Source of the DNA: Strix aluco | Taxonomy: Eukaryota > Chordata > Aves > Strigiformes > Strigidae | Direction of reading: 5' to 3' | Length of the DNA stretch: 64,000 nt | Assembly: GCF_031877795.1 (NCBI RefSeq) | Contig: NC_133935.1 | Span: forward strand, 72,062,303-72,126,302 | The notes under the pieces: generated by a model | The model's input: only the letters and a program-made list of their open reading frames with translations | The model's database searches: none | What the model was told of the DNA's origin: nothing | In this document: positions 26,111 through 45,000 of the stretch, piece by piece | Numbering within the stretch: the first letter of the stretch is position 1 | How the letters are laid out: each line of letters begins with the position of its first letter | Program-made: the position numbers and the translations under genes

Positions 26111-26699
26111 AGTGTCTGGAAAATACAAAATTAGGTATGCAGTAGATTTAAAAGAACAACAATAAGGTCACAGAATTGTATGATACTGCCAAATTAGGAA
26201 GGAGGTAAATACTCCCTTTAAAGACTCATGTTATGGTTAGAAACAGCCACACAAACACAGTTTGTGGGATGTCACGCATCTTACCATGCTCTCTTGAAGC
26301 ATGCTGTTGAATTATCTGAGACTATATGTAAAGTGTTGCAACCTCTGTAAAAAGCCTTCAAAGACAGCAGTGATGCCTAGGATTTCTGAATGCCCTTAAT
26401 GCAAACTCAGTGTTCAGCAACTGAACTCCTTGTATGAATACAGCTGCAATGGGCAACACAGCTATACAGTTACAGCAGAACACTGCCACCCAAGCTAAAA
26501 TAACTTTTCACAGCACTAACTCGAGACTGGCATAACCGAGACTCAGCACATCTCTGCTCTGCAGAAGAAACGCGTGCTGTGCTTAAGACAGCGCCTTTCA
26601 CTTGTGGCCAGAAACCCATCAGAAATGATCTTCTGTGAGCAAAGGTAGACTCGTCCCTACCTTAAGACAACCCGCTCAGGCTTTACCGAGAGGTTAGCC

Positions 26700-27250
26700 A
26701 GGAGACCCTCAGGGAGAGTACCTCATGCGGCGCGGCCAGGCCGACGGGACTACCGCCGAGCACGGACCTACCAGCACTGGTCCCTCACGGGGCAGCTCAG
26801 CAGAGCCCGCCGGATCCCAGGGGACCCCCCGCACACACCCCAGGGAGAACAACTGCCCGGCGTGCGCGGAGCCGCTCACAAGCCACACAGAGCCCCGCGA
26901 GGGACGAGGAGCCGCCCGCCGACCTCCCACATCAGACGAGCTCGCGTAGGGCCCCCCCCCCCGCCCACCCGCAACGACCCCTCCACAGCCGGGTCGCGGG
27001 CCCCCGGCCACCGCAGCACCCGGGAAGCGGCTGGGGCGGCCGAGCCGGGGGCGCTGCGCTCACCTCCGCTGGGCCGCCGAGCACGACGCGGCGCAGCGCT
27101 GCCGCCGGAGGTTTGAAATGGCGCTCGCGCACGTGACGCCCCCCGCGCGCCCTCACTGGCAGGTTCGAACGATACCCGACAACCGCCCCCGCCCCCGCGC
27201 GCCCGTCGCTGTCCGCGGCGCTGGGCCGCAGCCGCCTGCCGTGGCCGGTG
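26700..27250 (-). promoter_or_regulatory. GTSE1: GTSE1 CpG-island promoter and non-coding exon 1
   Basis: CpG-dense block. A good donor (CAGCGGAG followed by GTGAGC, minus strand) ends a likely untranslated first exon at 27064, joining the exon that starts at 26115. Just upstream are TTTGAA at 27112-27117 and TTCGAA at 27164-27169. Both are forms of the cell-cycle homology region (CHR) used by DREAM and MYB-MuvB complexes at G2/M genes. A GGCGC core lies right beside the first, and there is a CACGTGAC at 27130-27137. There is no TATA box. The start site is inferred to lie near 27100. Confidence 0.65.
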
Positions 27251-27723
27251 TTTAACGGGGTAGATACGTGTAACTGCTGCCAGTCCGGTAGAACTAGAGA
27301 CGGGCCTCTGGAGCGTCACAGCACCCAGGGCCATCAGAGGCTGCCCGGAAAGCTGCGGCAGGCGGCCGTGGGGTGGCTGGGTGGCGGCTGGCTCCCTCCG
27401 GCTGCGCTCGGCCTCGCAGGCCAGGCCGCTCCTTGGGCGCTTTCCACTCCTCAAGTGCAGGTTCCAGCCTTGCTGTTTCATCCCCACTGCTTGTTGCTGC
27501 AGAGCCCGGTTTGCCTGGCAGAGCTCGGCAGCCATGGTGGTGGCAGGAATGGAAGGGAAAACCTCGTGCTCCTGCCATGTAGGGAGACAGGTGTCTGCTG
27601 ACCTGTGCCCTGACCTGCAGGAGCCCAGGAGTTGTCTGGGCACTCCTAAAGGACATGGCTTCAGAGCCCTGCCGGGGCGCAGGGCCTCAGGGTGACAGCT
27701 GGCACAGCTGCCGTGCTGGTTGT
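27251..27723. other. GTSE1 upstream flank
   Basis: GC-rich shore of the CpG island running up to the CR1 insertion. Open frames occur on both strands but look like a by-product of base composition. I see no recognisable protein. Confidence 0.45.
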
Positions 27724-28475
27724 GGTGAGGCATACAACAACCCCCAGCAGCGCTACAGGCTTGGGGAGGAGTGGCTGGAGAGCTGCCAGTCAGAGAGGGA
27801 CCTGGGGGTGTTGATTGACAGCGGGCTGAACATGAGCCAGCAGTGTGCCCAGGTGGCCAAGAAGGCCAATGGTATCCTGGCTTGTATCAGAAATAGCATG
27901 GCCAGCAGGGACAGGGAAGTGATCTTACCCCTGGACTCGGCACTGGTGAGGCCGCACCTCAATTACTGTGTTCAGTTTTGGGCCCCTCACTACAAAAAGG
28001 ACATTGAATTACTCGAGCGTGTCCAGAGAAGGGCAACGAAGCTGGTGCAGGGTCTGGAGCACATGTCGTATGAGGAGCGGCTGAGGGAACTGGGGTTGTT
28101 TAGTCTGGAGAAGAGGAGGCTGAGGGGAGACCTCATCGCCCTCTACAACTACCTGAAAGGAGGTTGCAGAGAGCTGGGGATGAGTCTCTTTAACCAAGTA
28201 ACAAGCAATAGGACAAGAGGTAATGGCCTCAAGTTGCTCCAGGGAAGGTTTAGACTGGATGTTAGGAAGCATTTCTTTACAGAACGGGTAGTTAGGCGTT
28301 GGAATGGGCTGCCCAGGGAGGTGGTGGAGTCCCCATCCCTGGAGGTGTTTAAGAGGTGGGTTGACAGAGCCCTTAGGGATATGGTGTAGTTGGGAACTGT
28401 CAGTGCTATGTTAATGGTTGGACTGGATGATCTTCAAGGTCTTTTCCAACCTAGATGATTCTGTGATTCTGTGAG
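27724..28475 (+). mobile_element. CR1 LINE 3' part with long open ORF2 end
   Basis: About 750 bases of CR1, cut off at the 5' side. The frame that ends at 28389 stays open over roughly 220 codons of the ORF2 C-terminus ([72 protein letters not shown]). The 3' UTR follows and ends in GATTCTGTGATTCTGTGA. This is the best preserved CR1 in the window and so probably the youngest. It is not a host gene. It lies about 600 bp upstream of the GTSE1 promoter. Confidence 0.92.
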
Positions 28476-31000
28476 GGTGAAGATGAACTCCTTTTGTTTC
28501 CTCCACACCTTTGCTGCATATGACTGTATAGTCATTTAACTGCACCAAAAGGGATACGTACCTGTTACTAAGCTGACGTAAGGAATATCAAGATTCCCAG
28601 ATGTGCGTCACAGCTACTGCCAATTAATATGGGCTGACTGATAGAATAGTTTTAAAAGTAGACCCATGTCAGTAAGAAACACCAGGAAAACACCACTTTT
28701 CCACATTTTATCTGAAGTTTAATGATGCACAGTGCTTAGGGTTTTCTCCTAATATATGCATGGCCTCAGAAATTGCAGTTAAGTGATGTATTCTGTTCTG
28801 AGTATTATGGGATGACTAACTAAATCACTGGACTGGAATCTAGCAGCTGAATAAAAATGGTTGATCATGATCTGCAGATTTTCATAAGATAACATATTTT
28901 GTAACCCTTTCTCTACTTGGCTGCTTACATTTTGGTATCTTTCATGGAGCCTTGCAAGCAGTATACATGCAACATGAGTATATAGCAAGTATCCTATGTA
29001 TTAACTAAGATGCACAGTAAATGGCTGGGACAAATAGGCTACTAGGCTGAGTGTTAACATGCTTACCTCCCACTTTTCCTCCCTCCCATGACCCCAGGAG
29101 TCTCTCCTGGCTGGCCATGGTCAGTCCGGTGGGGAACTGTCAGGCTTTGTCACTCATAAAACGGGCCAGTCCTCATTATTACAGAGTTTCTGTCTTCCAG
29201 CTTTTTATCTCAGGATTTTATACCTGTTCTGTTTGGTGTTTTTTTCATGGGTCCTTGAGTCACTGTTACTGATATAACAATTTCAATTCTACATTTTTAC
29301 TGTTCTTCTCTTGCATTGCTTTAGCCTACAGAGTGTCTCACTAATAGCTCAAGAGCAATTTTTTTTTTTCAGTAAGTTGAGCAAGTGGCTGTGGCTGTAT
29401 TAATAAAACTGGGCCATGCACATTATAAAGGATAATTTTCAATAAAGAAAATTATTACAGAAGACAAAAAGTTGGGAGATCTCAAGAGTGTTTTATATGA
29501 CCAAAAATCAACAATCTCACACTTCTGAGATGAGGCTTGCACATACCTCCTTTTGCTTAGTTCAATCAAAAAGTGAAAGCATCAGTAAGAAACAGAAAAC
29601 CAAGATGAAACTAATGGGGAAAGGGGCAAATAGGCTTTAAGTGCTACAGATCTTAGGACTGAAGTAGGAAAAATTTATAAAGAAAACTAAAAACATACAG
29701 GAAAAGTTCATTGTACAGCTTTTATTGTGGCATCTACCACTATGCATATGTTATTTAAGAAAACAGAATCTGAAAGTTGTAACTGCCTATATTCTAAGGA
29801 TCAGGTCTGAAAAAGCAACTTAAGTCAGTAATTCTTTACTGATGTCCAAATTTCTTCCTCTAAGTCATTGTAATATTTCCATTTTTCTGTATTTAATATA
29901 TTACTAATAATGAAGAATCATATGACATCCTCAGTAGCTCCAGTGACAGCTTTACTCACATAAACAGCATGTGCACTTCTATTGAAATGCACACTGAGGT
30001 ACTAGTCTTGTAACAATTTTACTTAAAGGAAATGGAGACAAAATCAGTTTCTGTTAAACAGACACAGTGTTGATGAAATTAAAATAGCTCTTTTTCTAAA
30101 TGTTACTTACAGAAAAGAGTTTTAAGACCACTGAGAGTATGAGTACACAAGCTCAGTCTTAATTTTCTGGAGTGTAAGTGATATCCCAAGACATATTTGG
30201 AAATTGCTAATTGTTTTACTAGAACTAAAGGAACCAATTTTATTTATATAGAAACATAAATGCTATGTGAAGGAAAAGCAAAAGCCTTTAGAAATGCACC
30301 AGGACTACAAGTTCAGATTTGTCTTAACGGCAATTATATGTGACAATAAGCTTAAAGTAACAGATAAATGAGAAATGAAGTTATTTTAATGTTTTTGACA
30401 GTTTAAAGATGATGCAAGAAGGTGCCCACATTTTGCTTTGGGAAAGAAGGGCCTTGACCTATTTTTCTAAAATTTAAATGTGTTTATTCACAAGCCCTAC
30501 ACATAGTTACTGGACCATTGGACTTATTATGCTAAACCCACCATTAACCCAGCTAATCATGCAATGCCCAACTTTTGGGGGAACTTCTGCACTGGCATAG
30601 TCTCTTATTAATTAATGGCTCCAGATGGTCAGGGATGAATAGGATGTATGTGACTTTGTTGCTAACCCTGAATGTCCAAATGTTTTCTTTTGTACTGATA
30701 CACTGCTTATTAACTGCTTATTGAATATGACTGTGTTATAAAAGTCAACAGATTATTAAAGAAGGGACTTACTTTTTCATAAAAATCTTTGAATATTAGA
30801 GCATATCTAAGTGATGGTGGCTTGAAATTTCACTCCAGGCAAGTTAAACCAAATTACAGTTGTAGAAAGAAGCAAAGTTTTACCCCAAAATAGCCTGTGA
30901 TCTAATAGAAAGTAGTTCTAAGTTACAGCTCATCCTGCATTTTTCATCACCAGCACCCTCCATCTGTGCATTACTTGTGTTGCTATGAATTTGGCAATGC
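28476..31000. other. Intergenic, no gene seen
   Basis: AT-rich sequence between the CR1 copy and the small membrane-protein gene. ORFs are short and I find no plausible exon pair. A slightly GC-richer patch at 29050-29230 holds a 73-codon chance ORF. Confidence 0.5.
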
Positions 31001-31020
31001 TTCAGCAGCGAGCTACTGTT

Positions 31021-31027
31021 TATAAGA
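31021..31027 (+). promoter_or_regulatory. TATA-like element of the small membrane-protein gene
   Basis: TATAAGA (in TTTATAAGAAGG) about 325 bases before the predicted start codon. A start site near 31050 would give a 5' UTR of about 300 nt in the first exon. There is no CpG island here, unlike the other four genes, which suggests tissue-restricted expression. Inferred. Confidence 0.4.
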
Positions 31028-31345
31028 AGGGATCCCAGCAGCTAAAAGAAGCCAGTCGTTGGGATTACTCATTACTTGCCTTGTGAGCTGCCTCAGGGAA
31101 TTTCTTGAAGAGCAATGTCAAAATCAGCTTTAAAAAACCAGTAATTTGAGAACTTATGATTGACACGTATGAAGTGCTCCCAGATTAGTGTTGGTCAAGT
31201 TTGTGGGCTTGGAAGAAAGATTCTTTTTGTTGGTACTGAGTGAAGCTATTCCTCTTTTATGCAAGGAAACAAGAGGATAAAAAAGGCCTTTTTCCTCGCT
31301 GCAAGAAGAAATCTGACGCATTGGGAACTCAATCACCAAGACAAC

Positions 31346-31890
31346 ATGAATGCTTCCAGGAGGTAAGCTGCACATACTGCATTCCTCTCAGGTAGGAATA
31401 GGAAAGCAAACTAGTGACAGAATATTCCTCTCGTGGTCTTCACATGATGCTGCCAGATAATCATGAACTGTGTTATTTGATTTGCAGTTACACAAGACAG
31501 AAGGTAGCCTTTGTCCTGATAGGAATGTTAAATGTGCATTTCTAATTCTACAGCTACTTTCTGTAAAATCTCAGCTGCAGAACTTCTGTTTTATCGATGA
31601 ATGCCTTTTTGCAGATTGGACTTCCTAGTCTTTCATTTTTAACAGCTCTCTTCATAAGTATATAAATATAATTTGTATTTAAAAGCTCTTTACTTGTAAA
31701 CTGTATCTGCGGTAACGTTTTCGGTAACTTCTCTTCTGTGATAATAACAGCAGGAACATGTATGAACCAGAGCTGTAATACATCTAATACTCCTCAGACC
31801 CCTTCCTAAGCTACATGAAAATCACAAGCTGATTGATCTCCTTTTGGCATTCCAGTTCAGATGGAATTGTGGACATTCAACATTCTTTTC

Positions 31891-31925
<35 letters not shown>

Positions 31926-32756
31926 CAGGCCCACTGGGGCTTAGCAGGCAACTTTCAGTGGTGATAACAATAACTGGAGATCAGTTACCACAGGCTAACA
32001 CTTCTACTTTCAAACCATTTGGAAAAGGTGGCAAAGCAATGTTACTCCAGAGAATCCTACACATATGCTTTGTGTAGTATCTTTGGCTAATGAATACCTT
32101 GACACAGACTGCAGAGGGAAGTCCCCTCTGAAAAGCAGATAGGAACACATTATCAGAGCAGGATGGAAAGCTCACATAGCACACACTGTGCTTATTTTCA
32201 TGGATTAAAGCTTTGGAAACTGGTAATTTTTTTAAAACCCTGCCACTTTCATAATATTGCAAAATGAAAGGGTATGTTTTTTCTCATACAACTGATCTGT
32301 ATCAACAGTGAAGAGCACTGTGCGTCCTCTAACAAGCCCATGCCCAGTCTCTCTGCCTGTCAGTGGGAGAGAAATACCAAATGGCTGGTAAATGTTTTGT
32401 ATTTCCAGTTATGGAAATTACTTTATTAGCCCCATACAGTTTGAAGAGCTCTTTCCCAAATCTAGTCAATGATACAATGCACACTCTGGACTTCATTATA
32501 AACACTATTGAACTGTTAATAAAAAAGAATCATTTTTAATCTTAATCTTGCTTTTTGTTATGGCAGGATACATTCTCTCCGTGCTCACAGACAGAAAAAC
32601 AATGGGAACAAAAGTGAGAACTGGCACAGCAGCTCTGGGTTCAAGCACCAGCATGAAGATGATCTTGCTACAGTCCATGCCCTTTACACAGTGATTGTCA
32701 TGATCCTTCTAATAGCAATTTGGGGAGTCTGGTCAAGAAAGGATTCATCCTTATAG
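31346..32756 (+). CDS. Unrecognised 68-aa single-pass membrane protein
   Basis: Two coding exons, 31346-31362 and 32567-32756, joined across a 1204-nt intron. The donor is AGGAG followed by GTAAGC; the acceptor is a T-rich tract ending GGCAG. The join completes an Arg codon and gives 68 aa. The first half is polar and basic (MNASRRIHSLRAHRQK, then a His/Ser-rich and acidic stretch HQHEDD). Residues 43-61 form one hydrophobic segment (HALYTVIVMILLIAIWGVW). The tail is SRKDSSL, whose last residues fit a class I PDZ ligand (Ser at -2, Leu at 0). NAS at 2-4 is a glycosylation sequon, usable only if the N-terminus faces the lumen. The ATG has A at -3. An in-frame upstream ATG at 31259 could add 29 residues but has a poor context. 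A TATA element and a polyadenylation signal frame the unit. I cannot assign a family; it lacks the length and juxtamembrane motif of KCNE subunits. Confidence 0.62.
31895..31924 (+). repeat. Poly-A tract, 30 bases
   Basis: Uninterrupted run of 30 A inside the intron of the small membrane-protein gene. No recognisable element precedes it and I see no clear target-site duplication, so it may be a simple repeat rather than the tail of a processed insertion. Confidence 0.9.
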
Positions 32757-33345
32757 CAGCAATATGCTTTTTTTGGTCAAATATTTAAATGAATATTTGT
32801 GTTGATTATCCATACCCAGGAGGTACAAAAAAATGGTCTCAGCATATTACAGTTTACTTGAAACTGCTTAAACTATTGCTACTTGTGGAACTGAATCTGT
32901 GAAGCAGTTTAATAAGCAATGTACAGAACATGACTTTGTGAATAACATACGCCTGTTTGCACTGTACACATTTATGTTACCCTTCGCATGTATATGAAAC
33001 TTACTTTAAGCACAATATGCTAGCAAGAAGAAAAGTTCAATTTATGTTTTTATTGGTCAATGTTTTGTATATCTACCCCAGCTTTTCATTTTTCAACCTA
33101 AGTTGTCCAGTCTCTACCTCTGCTAAGATTACCTGTCCCAATCCATGGTAAAACATACACTATAAACAGGCAAATAATCTGCCATGTCACAACAACAGGA
33201 AAAAAAATTCAATAAAACCCACTACGCTGCAGGCAAAGGAAGACCTCTGAACAAGTCAAATTTGCATCTCCATTGCTGAAGAGAGTTTATATGGGACTTG
33301 CATCTGCATATTTTTAACTTATGGTAATGCCTTTGTAAACTCAGG

Positions 33346-33363
33346 AATAAAACCATGAAATAA
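33346..33363 (+). terminator. Polyadenylation signals of the small membrane-protein gene
   Basis: AATAAA at 33346-33351 and again at 33358-33363, about 590 bases after the predicted stop codon. They fit a 3' UTR of about 0.6 kb. Confidence 0.5.
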
Positions 33364-33379
33364 ACTGTATTTGTAAGCC

Positions 33380-35400
33380 TCCTTTGTTGCAGAACCAACT
33401 GGCTCAGTCTTCAATCTTGTACCAATATATTTAATTAATCTTCAACCACAGCTTGCTTTTCCATAATTCATCAATTCCTCACAGCAGTACCAACCTCTAC
33501 ATACACCAGCCAATCCTTGATGGGGGGCATTCCATACTCCCACTTTTTCAGGGAAGTAACTCCATTCAGAAAACCTGCAAGCTTTCTTGAAATACAGCCA
33601 GTTAGCCTCTTTTAAACTCTTTAATTGTATGGTTGCTAACTCCTGATGAACTCGGTTAATTGACTGGCAGCTCTGAGGGGCGGTGGCTGTTGGGAACAAT
33701 AGTCCAAGCCTCTGGAGTTTGAACTCTGCTTAAACCCCAAATTTCAGCATTGCCTAAACTAACAGAACCCTAACAAACAAAGAACTGCAGGACATTTTGA
33801 ATACATAGTAACAAAGAGATACATGTTTGTAATTACGTAGTATCTGTAGACAACACAATTCTTGTAAGTATTGTGTACCCCATTTTGGTATCCGTGCATA
33901 ATCAAAAGAGGTACATCAACTGAAAGGTTTATGAGAAGACCTACACGGCGTACCTCAGGGAGTGTTTACAAAGCACAGTATAGCACCAGAACCTGTGTCA
34001 GCTCTCAACAGGCGGGTGTGGGTGCTGGAATCAGCGTTCCTGTGTCTATGCAACACTTCGCCAGTGTCACCCGACTTGGGCAAACACCCTTGTCAAGGTA
34101 CCATCTCATCATGCTTTAACATGGGAGCAAAGCTTTGATGATGCTTTCTGAAGAACAGCACATAAAGGAATAAGAAGAAAAAAATAGATGATTGGCAATT
34201 GGCACATTAAATGCATTGCCATAAGACATAGGGACCTCAGTCATAAACCATATAGCATGAACTAATATTACAAGTGAAAGCAAAAGGATAGTTCCTCCCT
34301 TGTAAACGTACCATTGAAGTACATGAGAAGAGAGAGGGATTTAGACATTCTGACAGTAGTTTGAAGAACCCCAGGCAATTGGGGTTGTGTGACAGGCAAT
34401 GGCCTCAGTGCCCTGGAAGCTTACCATCATCAAGGTTTTTGCAGGAGAGAGGGAGTTTTGACAACGGGTCAAAGAGTGGTACTGAATAATCATTTATTTT
34501 GAAAATTATGAAGGGAGATTCCCCTAGCTGAAGTAAGCATGGGATGCCTGAAACTGCTGCTATGAAAACACAACAAGGTAAGAGGGTAAGTTTAGGCTGT
34601 AGGAGACCAATATGAACTGTGAAGGGCTTTGGAAGTAAAAGCAGACAGGTAAAAGCATCTCAGGATGACAGAAGAGAGGAAGCCAGTGAACAGAGCTGGG
34701 GAGGGGGGCACACTTAATGGTGAGCAGAATTCAATCCTGGAACCAGTCACTGACAGCTGATGTGGATTTTTCCTTTGCTTAAGTTTTTGTAAATCAGATT
34801 GGCTATTTGTTCTAACATATGTAGCTTTTAGAAACATGCATCTTACTAATATCAAACACACAGTTCGGAGATGCATAGGCTGCAGCTCATAAATTGAGCT
34901 GCCAGACCAGCGAACCTACATCGCTTGTGCTGCCGTGTTCATCACAGTGGCCTGAAGATACGGCTGCAGAGCACTCAGGAGTCATCCTGATGCGAGGGAG
35001 CCTACTCTCCGCTTCTCTTTCCCTGCAGAACCTCTGACTGTCCCTTTCACATCACTGCAAGATTTGCCATGTGCCAGAATATATATTCCCCCAACCATGA
35101 AACGGGCACACATCTGATCCTGCACACATGCACCAGCCCACAGGTGAAGGCTGCTGGCAAATCTTTGTGTGCTACTGGACATCCTCCCTGAGGGGAGGAT
35201 GACCACCTCTGTCACAACAGGGCAGGTAAGTTTTCCTTGAGTATATATCTGTATTCCTGCTGCATGCCCAGAGGTATACCTGTTACATAATGGACAGGCC
35301 AGCATTTTGGACATTTCTCAGATCTACCTAGGTTGAAAGCTTGGGAACTGTCTTTAACTCAAATAGCAATAGCCTGCTGGCTTTAGTGCATATTACAAAG
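33380..35400. other. Intergenic, no gene seen
   Basis: Unique-looking sequence between the small gene and a CR1 copy. A minus-strand frame at 33442-33699 (85 codons) and one at 34982-35314 (110 codons) are open, but neither resembles a protein I know and neither is flanked by convincing splice sites. Confidence 0.4.
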
Positions 35401-35401
35401 T

Positions 35402-35878
35402 CCTAGAATCACAGAATCATAGAATGGTTTGGGTTGGAAGGGACCTTAAAGATCACCTACTTCCAACCCCCCTGCCACAGGCAGGGACACCTTCCACTAG
35501 ACCAAGTTGCTCAAAGCCCCGTCCAACCTGGCCTTGAACACTTTCAGGGAGGGGAAAGCCACAACATCTCTGGGCAACCTGTTCCAGTCCCTCACCACCC
35601 TCACAGTGAAGAATTTCTTCCTTATATCTAATCTAAATCTACCCTCTTTCAGTTTAAAACCATTACCTCTTGTCTTATCACTACACTCTGTGGTAAAAAG
35701 TCCCTCCCCATCTTTCCTGTAGCCCCCTTTAAGTACTAGAAGGCTGGTCTAAGGTCTCCCTGGAGCCTTCTCTTCTCCGGGCTGAACAACCCCAACTCTC
35801 TCAGCCTGTCCTCGTAGGGGAGGTGCTCCAGCCCCCTGATCATCTTTGTGGCCCTCCTCTGGACTCCCTCCAACAGGT
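35402..35878 (-). mobile_element. CR1 LINE, 5'-truncated
   Basis: Reverse-oriented copy. The plus strand begins with the complement of the 3' tail (AGAATCACAGAATCATAGAA), followed by TGGTTTGGGTTGGAAGGGAC, and runs to CCTCTGGACTCCCTCCAACA at the truncated 5' end. It is close to the subfamily at 22778-23372. An AT-rich degenerate repeat abuts its 5' end. Confidence 0.9.
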
Positions 35879-37249
35879 CATTTAAAAAGATGTAAAACAA
35901 GTCATAGTAAAAGAAGTAATTGTAAAACATTGTAAAATGAGTAATTGTAAAAGATGTCTTTGTACAGTCTGTTTCTTTCTTGCCCTGTCTCCTCCCCTCC
36001 CTCCCCCCACCCCCCCCAGAAACTCATGTATTGCAGAGCTTTCAAGCAGGAAAGTGAATTCTGTGGTGGACAAGGTTTTAGCCATCACCTTTCAGAAGAA
36101 CAGGCTGCTGGTTTCGCTCAGTTTTTGTCATATACACAATGTTAAAAGGCAGCACAGAAAAACCACCACCACCCCACCTAAAGAAAAAAAGCTAGAACAA
36201 CTGACCACACATGATACCTTTGGATTTAGTTCTTAATTTATAAATCCTGCAGGTGTAATCCTGCCTCTGAAGCACTGGAGATCCAAATAAGGTATTGAAA
36301 ATGCTTCAGCTTCCTCTCTTTCACCTTATGATAGAGACAAGGTATGAAAGTTCAGAGGGGACAGCAGGAGAACATTAAATGTTTTGAAAAACCTGTCTTT
36401 TTTCGTTAAACTTTTGCTTTGCAGGAAAACAGCAGTGCTTGATTTAACAGTAACATTATAGATACACATTTACTAATTTTTAATGTGTCCAGAAAGAAAA
36501 GTATAACTTTGCAGGGTCAACAAAATCTACATTTATTACCAGTTTTTATAAATAATTTGTTTAACTTAGATAATGCAACTAGGACTAGGGGAAAACTGCT
36601 CTTGCAGGACAATGGCATAGTCTTCACTGACAACAGACCCAAATCATCTGCCTGCCTCACAGGTACTATGGAAGCTTCAGGTCCCAAAATCATTTCCAGG
36701 AAAACCACCCACGAAAATAGCTCATTTGGGTCTCATAATAAATCACAATTTCATAATTTAAGTCATGTCAACAGCAACAAACTATTTACTGTTTCTACAC
36801 CAATGAAATAGACTGATAGTAATTAGAAACTGTGAACCCAAGTTTGGAACTTATATATCAATTATTATGCAGCAATCTTTTTATTAATATTTCTCCTATA
36901 TTAAACAGACCAGACTGATGTTTTACACATGTTCAAAAAAGGCTGTGGTTTAAGCATACCTATCTGCTGTTATTTTAAGCTACCAAAACCAATGTCAGCA
37001 GTTCAGCCAGCAAATCTGATGATATACTCCATGTACCAACTGGACTGTCAGAAAAGGAAAACAAGTCTTTTATTTTCCATGGTCATTCTCACATGCTGAT
37101 GTTACGCATGTTTTATTTCAAAAGACTCAAGCCCTTCCAAGCTCCATTTTTTACTACTGCCTCACATTTTTCCTTTAGAGAGTATGATACATTCTGTAAA
37201 ACCATCTTTAAATCAAGAAATCAGTACAGCCATTTCTCCTGAATAAATT

Positions 37250-41559: not shown

Positions 41560-42028
41560 CTCTCACCGATGGCGCAGACCGGCCCCGGGAGCGCTCGGCA
41601 GCACCGGCCCTACGGCGTTTGCCAGAGTAACGGTCACACAAGGACGGACACACTCTTGTCTCGTACAGAACACAATTTTAATAACACACAGCCGTTCATG
41701 TATGGTTTTCCACGCTTCCCAGACGGGAAACCCCCCGCATGCGGCCTCCACAGCCGGAGGCAGGCCGCACCTCCCGCCCGCCCCGCCGCCGCTCTCCTCA
41801 CCCCTTCCCACCCAGCAGCGGCCGCACCGACGGGAACCGCCGCTGGCGCCTGGCTCCTCCCGCCCGCCCTCCCAGCCAGCTCCGGCCGCCGCCGCCGTAC
41901 CCCCCGGCCCTCACCGCCGCCCGCCAAGCGCCTCGGCCGCGGCCCCACGCCGCCAGGCCCCTCCTCCCCGCGCCCAGCCCTCCCCGGAAGGGCGGCCCCT
42001 TCCCGGCCAGCGCGGCGGCGGCGGCGGG
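41560..42028. promoter_or_regulatory. Bidirectional CpG-island promoter, TPRKB and ALG10
   Basis: 469 bases between the two divergent start codons, very GC-rich toward ALG10 and ending in a GGC repeat (GCGGCGGCGGCGG) just before the ALG10 ATG. There is no TATA box. Long open frames cross this block on both strands but reflect base composition. Shared control of the two genes is inferred from the layout alone. Confidence 0.7.
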
Positions 42029-45000
42029 ATGGAGCGGGCCGAGGCCTACGGCTTCTCCGCCGCCATGAGCGGCTCCTTCCTGCTGTCGTGCCTGCTCTTC
42101 GCGGCGATCAACCGCCGCCAGCGCGGGCCCTACATGGACGAAGCCTTCCACGTCCCCCAGGCGCAGGCCTACTGCCACGGCCGCTTCCTCCAGGTGCTGC
42201 GCGTTTGCCAGTCAGGAGCGATGATTTCTATAAACGTACTGTGGGCGCTTTGGAAAGAGAATGATTTGTGGTCATTGCTGTCCAAACGCCGGTTTCTGCT
42301 TTCTGTTATTTGGTGGTGCGGTAGGGCGCCAGGCAGGAGACAAGGTGTTCAGAAATTTCAGTCTAATGATGCCAGAAATTCGCTGAACATCCAAGCTAAC
42401 AAAATGGGCCATGGGTGGGAATGGTCTGTCGTAACCTGTTGTGTGTCTCCGGTCCGTAACCCTCTGTCTCTCTCCGCTTTCCAGTGGGACCCCATGATCA
42501 CCACGCTGCCGGGCTTGTACCTGGTCTCGGTGGGCGTAGTGAAGCCCACAGCGTGGCTCTTCGGGTGGACGGGAAGCGTGGTGTGCTCTGCAGGAATGCT
42601 CAGGTTTATTAACCTCCTTTTCAGTGCTGGGAACTTCTACTTACTGTATTTACTTCTCTTCAAGATCCATCAGAAGAATAAGGTACAGTCAAAGTAGAAT
42701 AATTTTATGCGCTCATACAAGCAGTTTTGATGGCTCTGTATGTTCACTTCACTACCTATGTGAGCTGTCCTCTACTACTACCAGTTTGGCCAAGGAGGCA
42801 CATTCCTTTTCTCTTAAAAAAAAAAGATATATTTTTTCTCTCTCACAGTGCAGTCCTCTGAAAATTTACTCTTGTGCATAACTAAAAGTAGTCACACTGA
42901 AATAAAACTTAAACTTAGTATGTGTATAGACTTACTATCCCAAGGTCTGAATACTCATCTAGTTGGAATTACTTAAAGACTTTCCACCAAACTTCAACCA
43001 CTGAATCCTGAGTCAAGCCCTGTGAACTGTGTTTAAACTAAAATCTGTTCTTTAGAAAGATACCATGTTTGACATCAGTATTTAGAACCGGAGAATAATT
43101 CAAGTTGGGAAGAATTGAAGAATGATTCAGGTTGGAAGGGACCTTAGGAGGTCCACCTTCCAGCCCAAAGCAGGCCAGCCCTGAGATCAGATCAGGTTGC
43201 TCAGGACTGGGGCCTGGAAAACTCTCCAAGGACAGAGTGACTGCACAACCTCTGGGGGCAACCTGCTCCATGACTGACTAGCCTCATGGTGAAAAAGGTT
43301 ATTCTTGCATCCAGTTGGAACCTCTCATTTCAGTTTATGCCTGTTGTCTCTTGTCCTCCCATCATGTACCACTTTGAGGAGCCTGGCTCCCTTTACCTGT
43401 TGATATTTTCAGAGATACTGGTAGGCTGCTGTTCGGTCCCCACAAGCCATCTATTTTCCAGACTGAACAAGGCGAGCTCCCTCAGCCCCTCCTCTCAGGG
43501 CAGGTGCTTCAGCCCCCACCTGTCTTGGTGGCCCTCTGCCATTGCTCCAGTTCACTAGTGCTTTTTATGTATCACAGGGCACAAAATTGGACATGGTATT
43601 CTAGGTACAACCTAACAAATAGAGTAAAGAGGGATACTCGCTTCCCTTGATCTGCTGGTATGCTCTTGTTAATGCTGCCCGGAAGACTGTTGCAGTCCCT
43701 TAGTGCCAGGGCGAGCTGCCGGCTCATGGTCACCTCACTGTATGCCAAGACCCCCAGGTCCCTCTCCACAGAGCAGCAGATCCTCAGCTACTCCATGTCC
43801 AGCCTGTATCATTGGAGATTTCTTCCTTTCCAGGTGCAGGCATTTGCATTTGTCCTTTTTGAATTGCATAGCAGTTCTGTTGCCCCATTCCTCCACCCTG
43901 TCTAGGTCACTCTAGATGGCAGCTCTGCTATTTAGCATATTGCCTGGTCCCACCACTTTAGTGTCATCTGCAGACTTGATGAGAGTGTACTCTCGCTGTC
44001 ATTGATAAAGATGTTAAACAGGAGAGGTCCCAGTATAAATCCCTGTGATGCTCTGGTTATTACTCTCCTTTGGGTAGAGTGTGACCAGTTACCATACAGC
44101 CAGTTTTTACCTGTCTAGTAGTCTACCCATCCAGACCATCACAGTTCAACTTGGATACAAGAATATTGTATATTTAAAGTGGTGGAGAATCCAACACTGC
44201 AGTAGGTAAATTGTTTCAGTGGTTAATGGCCTATTCAAAACCTTTCACCTTAGTAAAGTTGTTTAGTTTCACTTTGAACCATAAGAACATTTTTTCCTGT
44301 TTCGCAATAACTGAAGGATTCCTTTACTATAAAGAAAATTTCTTCTGGTGTATTTTCTTGTTGGAGACTGTTCATGTTTAAGCACATGATAAGACTATAC
44401 AGAATTGGGTCAAATTCAGTAAATTGTTTCCACTTTCAGAACACTTTTAATTTTATGCTTGGAGGTGGAAATACAAATATAAGAAAACAAAAGGTTTCAT
44501 GACAGTAGTCTAAGCATTAGAAAATGTAGTTATATTGTTGGCATTTCTTTGAACTCAGCATTTTCTCTGTTCCTCTTTTCTGTAAGGTGGTGACTGGCTG
44601 TTTCGCCCCATGCTACATCATTGAGAAACGTCATGCAACATTTTTTAATGTTGTGAATTGCGTTGCATCATGTAGTACGTGGGATAATTGGGAGGAGTTT
44701 TTAACTGCATGGTCTCCTACCTTCTTTAGAGTTTCTTTTCTAACTCGTGAATTATAATGAAGATAATAAAAGCTGACCAAAGATTAGAAAGTTGGAACTG
44801 GCCACTCTGTGGTCTGGGTTCAAAAGAAGCAAAATTAGAAGCACAGAATGATGTGTTCTGCTGTCTCACAGAGTCTGATGATGAGATTGCAGGGGCATAA
44901 AACCGGTTTTGGTTTTTTCTTTTCTTCTTCCCATTAGTGCAGCTTTTTTATCCTAGGTATGGGTGCAATTATACTCCCACAATGATTTTAATGCCACAAA

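Follow-up and report, generated by a model that had tools for sequence, protein, structure and literature searches.

A plausible candidate gene for a small tail-anchored membrane protein between GTSE1 and ALG10 in Strix aluco

In this report, we describe a candidate two-exon model on the forward strand of Strix aluco DNA, placed between GTSE1 on the reverse strand and ALG10 on the forward strand, which is a plausible but unproven small gene of a familiar kind, the small single-pass membrane proteins that are overlooked by annotation. The window, that is, the whole stretch of DNA analysed, comprises 64,000 nucleotides (72062303-72126302 of the contig, forward strand read) of an assembly of 1.41 Gb in 202 contigs. 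What the gene model rests on is a set of sequence features together with a predicted helix, and on these grounds we put the prospect that it is a real two-exon gene as drawn, which would encode a 68-residue tail-anchored microprotein, at just short of even. If real, it would add one further small membrane protein of the type that gene finders overlook, and a possible restriction to birds or reptiles would be directly addressable by synteny; if not real, it would be an instructive case of how frequently clean-looking small gene models occur in a large genome. We consider it somewhat unlikely that the model represents an unannotated tail-anchored microprotein gene that is possibly limited to sauropsids and has no mammalian counterpart, lying where the ALG10-GTSE1 neighbourhood broke in mammals, whose order of genes is presumed here.

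Locus, candidate exons and splice sites

Three neighbouring genes are marked by Pfam matches, namely TRMU (tRNA_Me_trans) and GTSE1 (GTSE1_N) on the reverse strand of the window and ALG10 (DIE2_ALG10) on the forward strand, and GTSE1 is divergent from the candidate. Translated frames of the left flank resemble what we take to be CELSR1, and the presumed gene order is CELSR1-TRMU-GTSE1-ALG10. A search of the owl's own genome with the DNA of the locus returned solely the locus itself. A blastn comparison of 31000-33600 with the rest of the window gave seven matches, the longest of 26 nt near an A run; none of the seven overlaps the candidate coding exons, and these exons are therefore not a repeat within the window. 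Two long frames, at 27583-28389 on the forward strand and 35497-36023 on the reverse strand, are presumably remnants of CR1 LINE reverse transcriptase; a Pfam scan of the former gave one weak match below the cut-off and nothing more. These remnants, like the order of the neighbouring genes, point to bird DNA.

The candidate first coding exon (31346..31362, forward strand) is 17 nt long, specifies MNASR plus two nucleotides and is followed by the donor GTAAGC; a candidate intron of 1204 nt (31363..32566, forward strand) then leads to the second coding exon (32567..32756, forward strand), which carries the membrane segment and closes with the stop codon TAG ending at 32756. An earlier note on this DNA had proposed that the frame running from the ATG at 31346 through the donor GAG/GTAAGC to the acceptor ...TTTTTGTTATGGCAG/GAT at 32567 yields 68 residues, and it does splice to that product. 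Because no ATG precedes the hydrophobic segment in frame in the translation of exon 2, this exon requires an upstream exon; the donor at 31362 was the best among four donors (in five rows) that score at least 3 and have a phase-2 ATG frame within 200 nt, for donors between 27500 and 32480. A run of 30 A residues lies within the candidate intron, at 31895-31924 on the forward strand.

Splice sites were scored with weight matrices, by which the candidate donor reached 6.89, matched or beaten by 20 of 6890 GT on both strands (top 0.3%), and the candidate acceptor 7.11, matched or beaten by 49 of 9140 AG on both strands (top 0.6%). The matrices were checked against ALG10, GTSE1 and TRMU, in which nine presumed borders could be placed to within tens of bases only. 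The top acceptors per range scored 7.84 and 10.37 (ALG10), 3.08 (GTSE1) and 2.78 (TRMU), and the top donors in the five presumed-border ranges scored 0.04, 1.11, 2.74, 3.73 and 6.12; as far as such approximate borders allow, the candidate splice sites outscore most of the presumed real ones in these genes. The list of the 22 top donors includes none of the five known-gene donors, again with approximate borders, and thus a high donor score does not by itself mark a gene here. A codon score trained on 819 codons gave the candidate an average value that was matched or beaten by 38 of the 77 non-coding stop-free stretches; this scoring failed leave-one-out on known exons and was therefore discarded as evidence for or against.

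Chance expectation and alternative transcripts

The candidate exceeds chance only weakly; it is unusual locally, not proven. A substantial possibility, though well below even, is that there is no gene at all and that seemingly strong splice sites coincide in intergenic DNA with an open frame and a hydrophobic stretch. We counted models under a full set of criteria, comprising a donor and an acceptor scoring at least as high as the candidate's, A or G at -3, a product of 50-150 aa, a KD-19 value of at least 1.6, a TATA-like string and AATAAA. These criteria were fitted to the candidate after it had been seen, and the chance figures therefore flatter it. The window holds one such model on the forward strand, which is the candidate, and none on the reverse strand. 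Comparable models do arise in simulated DNA, with full-criteria models in 1 of 150 (Markov-3) and 3 of 600 (Markov-4) simulated 64-kb strands, and models defined by splice sites and membrane segment only in 5 of the 150 Markov-3 and 31 of the 600 Markov-4 strands. The strength of the membrane segment argues against coincidence, however, since a KD value of at least 2.4 combined with the splice criteria was found in none of the 150 Markov-3 strands and in just one of the 600 Markov-4 strands.

Real sequence speaks on both sides of this question. No full-criteria model was found in 140 kb of flank on both strands, but the same flank contains two distinct models (ORFs) with splice sites and a membrane segment, one of them reaching a KD value of 2.4, and at looser splice scores (5, 5) it contains ten models without TATA and poly(A) and one with them. 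Because the real flank holds splice and membrane models far more often than simulated DNA, the latter understates the background. A rate of 0.005 per 64-kb strand corresponds to some 200-220 chance models per 1.41-Gb genome, a figure extrapolated from three events. In addition, the exon 2 frame of 77 aa is not unusual in length, because 176 stop-to-stop frames of at least 70 aa occur in the window, which again suits a coincidental origin. A scan that had taken only the first ATG per frame missed the candidate owing to an ATG at 31259, and every ATG was then taken; across 40 simulated strands, that earlier scan gave no strict model and no full-criteria model, and eight strands had loose models. 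In the flank, the reverse strand of piece L004 carries a splice and membrane model that starts with MLLVIALALHILWLISLCIF and reaches a KD value of 2.4, and the second part of this model coincides with a translated frame of the same piece.

The signals around the exons had been said to agree on one small transcript; the claimed parts are present, but they leave room for a 97-aa product starting at 31259 and for a 60-aa form spliced to another acceptor at 32591, which also preserves the frame. The start context has the favourable A at -3 and lacks the G at +4, where an A is found instead. Likewise, the TATA-like element GATAAAAA exists (31276..31283, forward strand; score 5.88, with 0.29% of forward-strand window positions scoring at least that), but it is weak and non-canonical. 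In the stretch of 545 bases that precedes the ATG, three sites outscore it, two of them overlapping, namely TTTATAAG at 31019, TATAAGAA at 31021..31028 (score 6.77), which may be an alternative promoter, and TTTAAAAA at 31129, all on the forward strand. That a real transcript of these exons is read in one of these other ways, or is a non-coding RNA, is in our view quite unlikely: the alternative start, acceptor and better TATA-like sites would permit it, but the in-frame upstream ATG (31259..31261, forward strand) has the weak context TCTTTTATGC, with T at -3, and the acceptor at 32591 is weaker than that at 32567 and surfaces only at splice-score settings of 6,6 and 5,5. A start at 31259 would also put the GATAAAAA element within the coding sequence.

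For the gene as drawn, two further observations of the earlier note were borne out. A CpG island is absent, with a CpG o/e of 0.28 over 31000-31500; the value is 0.92 in two GC-rich stretches (26600-27200 and 41900-42200) close to the 5' portions of GTSE1 and ALG10. Polyadenylation signals are present as three AATAAA motifs, at 33211, 33346 and 33359, within a candidate 3' UTR (32757..33380, forward strand) whose end position is a guess.

Predicted product and membrane topology

The 68-aa product contains nine K/R, five D/E and six H residues, and two glycosylation-type motifs at N2 and N20. It has the single hydrophobic segment that had been claimed for it, with a KD-19 maximum of 2.48 for LATVHALYTVIVMILLIAI; this segment lies near the C terminus, at residues 39-57 of 68, and a second strong segment is absent, as judged by eye. 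By the position of the membrane segment, the KD-19 scan and the one predicted helix in the exon-2 part agree with a tail-anchored product. AlphaFold2, run on exon 2 as a single sequence, gave one helix at 23-60 of 62 (29-66 of 68), with a mean pLDDT of 71, a pTM of 0.39 and, for the greater part of the membrane segment, pLDDT block means of 87 and 91; this helix model carries no topology information.

Tail-anchored proteins are inserted after translation, with the N terminus cytosolic. The candidate, in which about seven residues follow the segment, would be laid out with a basic, His-rich tail of about 40 residues, a membrane segment at about 42-61 and a seven-residue end. With the segment this close to the C terminus, co-translational recognition would be missed and the chain would be released from the ribosome beforehand; insertion would then be post-translational, as a tail-anchored protein with a cytosolic N terminus, through either the EMC or TRC40. 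Among tail-anchored proteins, those whose segments are moderately hydrophobic are reported to have the EMC as an insertase (PMC5788257). Once inserted, the helix may act by packing against a larger membrane protein, and the basic tail may bind a cytosolic partner or an acidic lipid. The short end after the segment suggests this tail-anchored, N-cytosolic topology, although the charges flanking the segment (E-D-D before, R-K after) point to the opposite one. If the product is tail-anchored, both glycosylation motifs would be unused, and the DSSL end would be lumenal, which disfavours the proposal that it serves as a PDZ ligand.

Comparison with known small membrane proteins

The family had not been recognised from the sequence, and our searches of Pfam, NCBIfam, PDB, viral and prokaryote collections agree in giving no relative, in libraries that are thin for small vertebrate proteins. 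Among five candidate forms scanned against Pfam, three matched DUF6584 only (E 0.027-0.15) and two matched nothing; the DUF6584 matches, which lie below the family cut-off, we take as chance. No relative of the candidate was found in NCBIfam or in the PDB, and none of the six pattern matches in viral contigs or the 42 in prokaryote contigs was confirmed as a relative. At the level of listings, a literature search on the gene neighbourhood, on microproteins and on candidate peptides did not identify the candidate; it returned no paper joining GTSE1, TRMU, ALG10 and chicken, and no match to the candidate peptide strings.

In overall design, the candidate resembles SERP1/RAMP4 (PF06624), which at 66 aa versus 68 has a basic N-terminal part and a single membrane helix near its C-terminal end, and M1, A3, R6, I7, K16 and N17 coincide without gaps. 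In contrast to the human SERP1 control, which matches the Pfam RAMP4 model at 2.7e-28, the candidate has no match to it. The local alignment score of 23 is below the shuffle mean of 25.8 and was reached by 3462 of 5000 shuffles, the global score was reached by 480 of 5000, and positions 2-24, a stretch that was picked after it had been seen, show 5 identities in 23 ungapped positions, with a shuffle fraction of 0.017. Membership of the RAMP4/SERP family was therefore rejected, on the missing Pfam match and an alignment no better than composition-matched shuffles. A likeness to the KCNE potassium-channel subunits, for which we take PF02060 to be the accession, lies in a single helix followed by S-R-K and in N-terminal glycosylation-type motifs (N2 and N20 in the candidate), features that we presume for KCNE; the candidate differs in lacking the C-terminal part that we likewise presume for that family. 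Pfam lends this resemblance no support, with no KCNE model among the matches listed at E of at most 10, a range in which HMMER filters drop most weak matches.

SMIM31 is a protein with a single membrane segment. Found by PhyloCSF and 71 aa long, it is like the candidate in being shorter than 100 aa, in having more than one coding exon and in having been missed by earlier annotation (PMC6886504). The likeness is one of general description, and SMIM31 differs in its conservation to coelacanth and its cDNA support, both as given in that source. According to the same source, translations shorter than 100 aa make up 50 of the 144 human genes that were newly added (PMC6886504), and small coding sequences are thus a known annotation gap.
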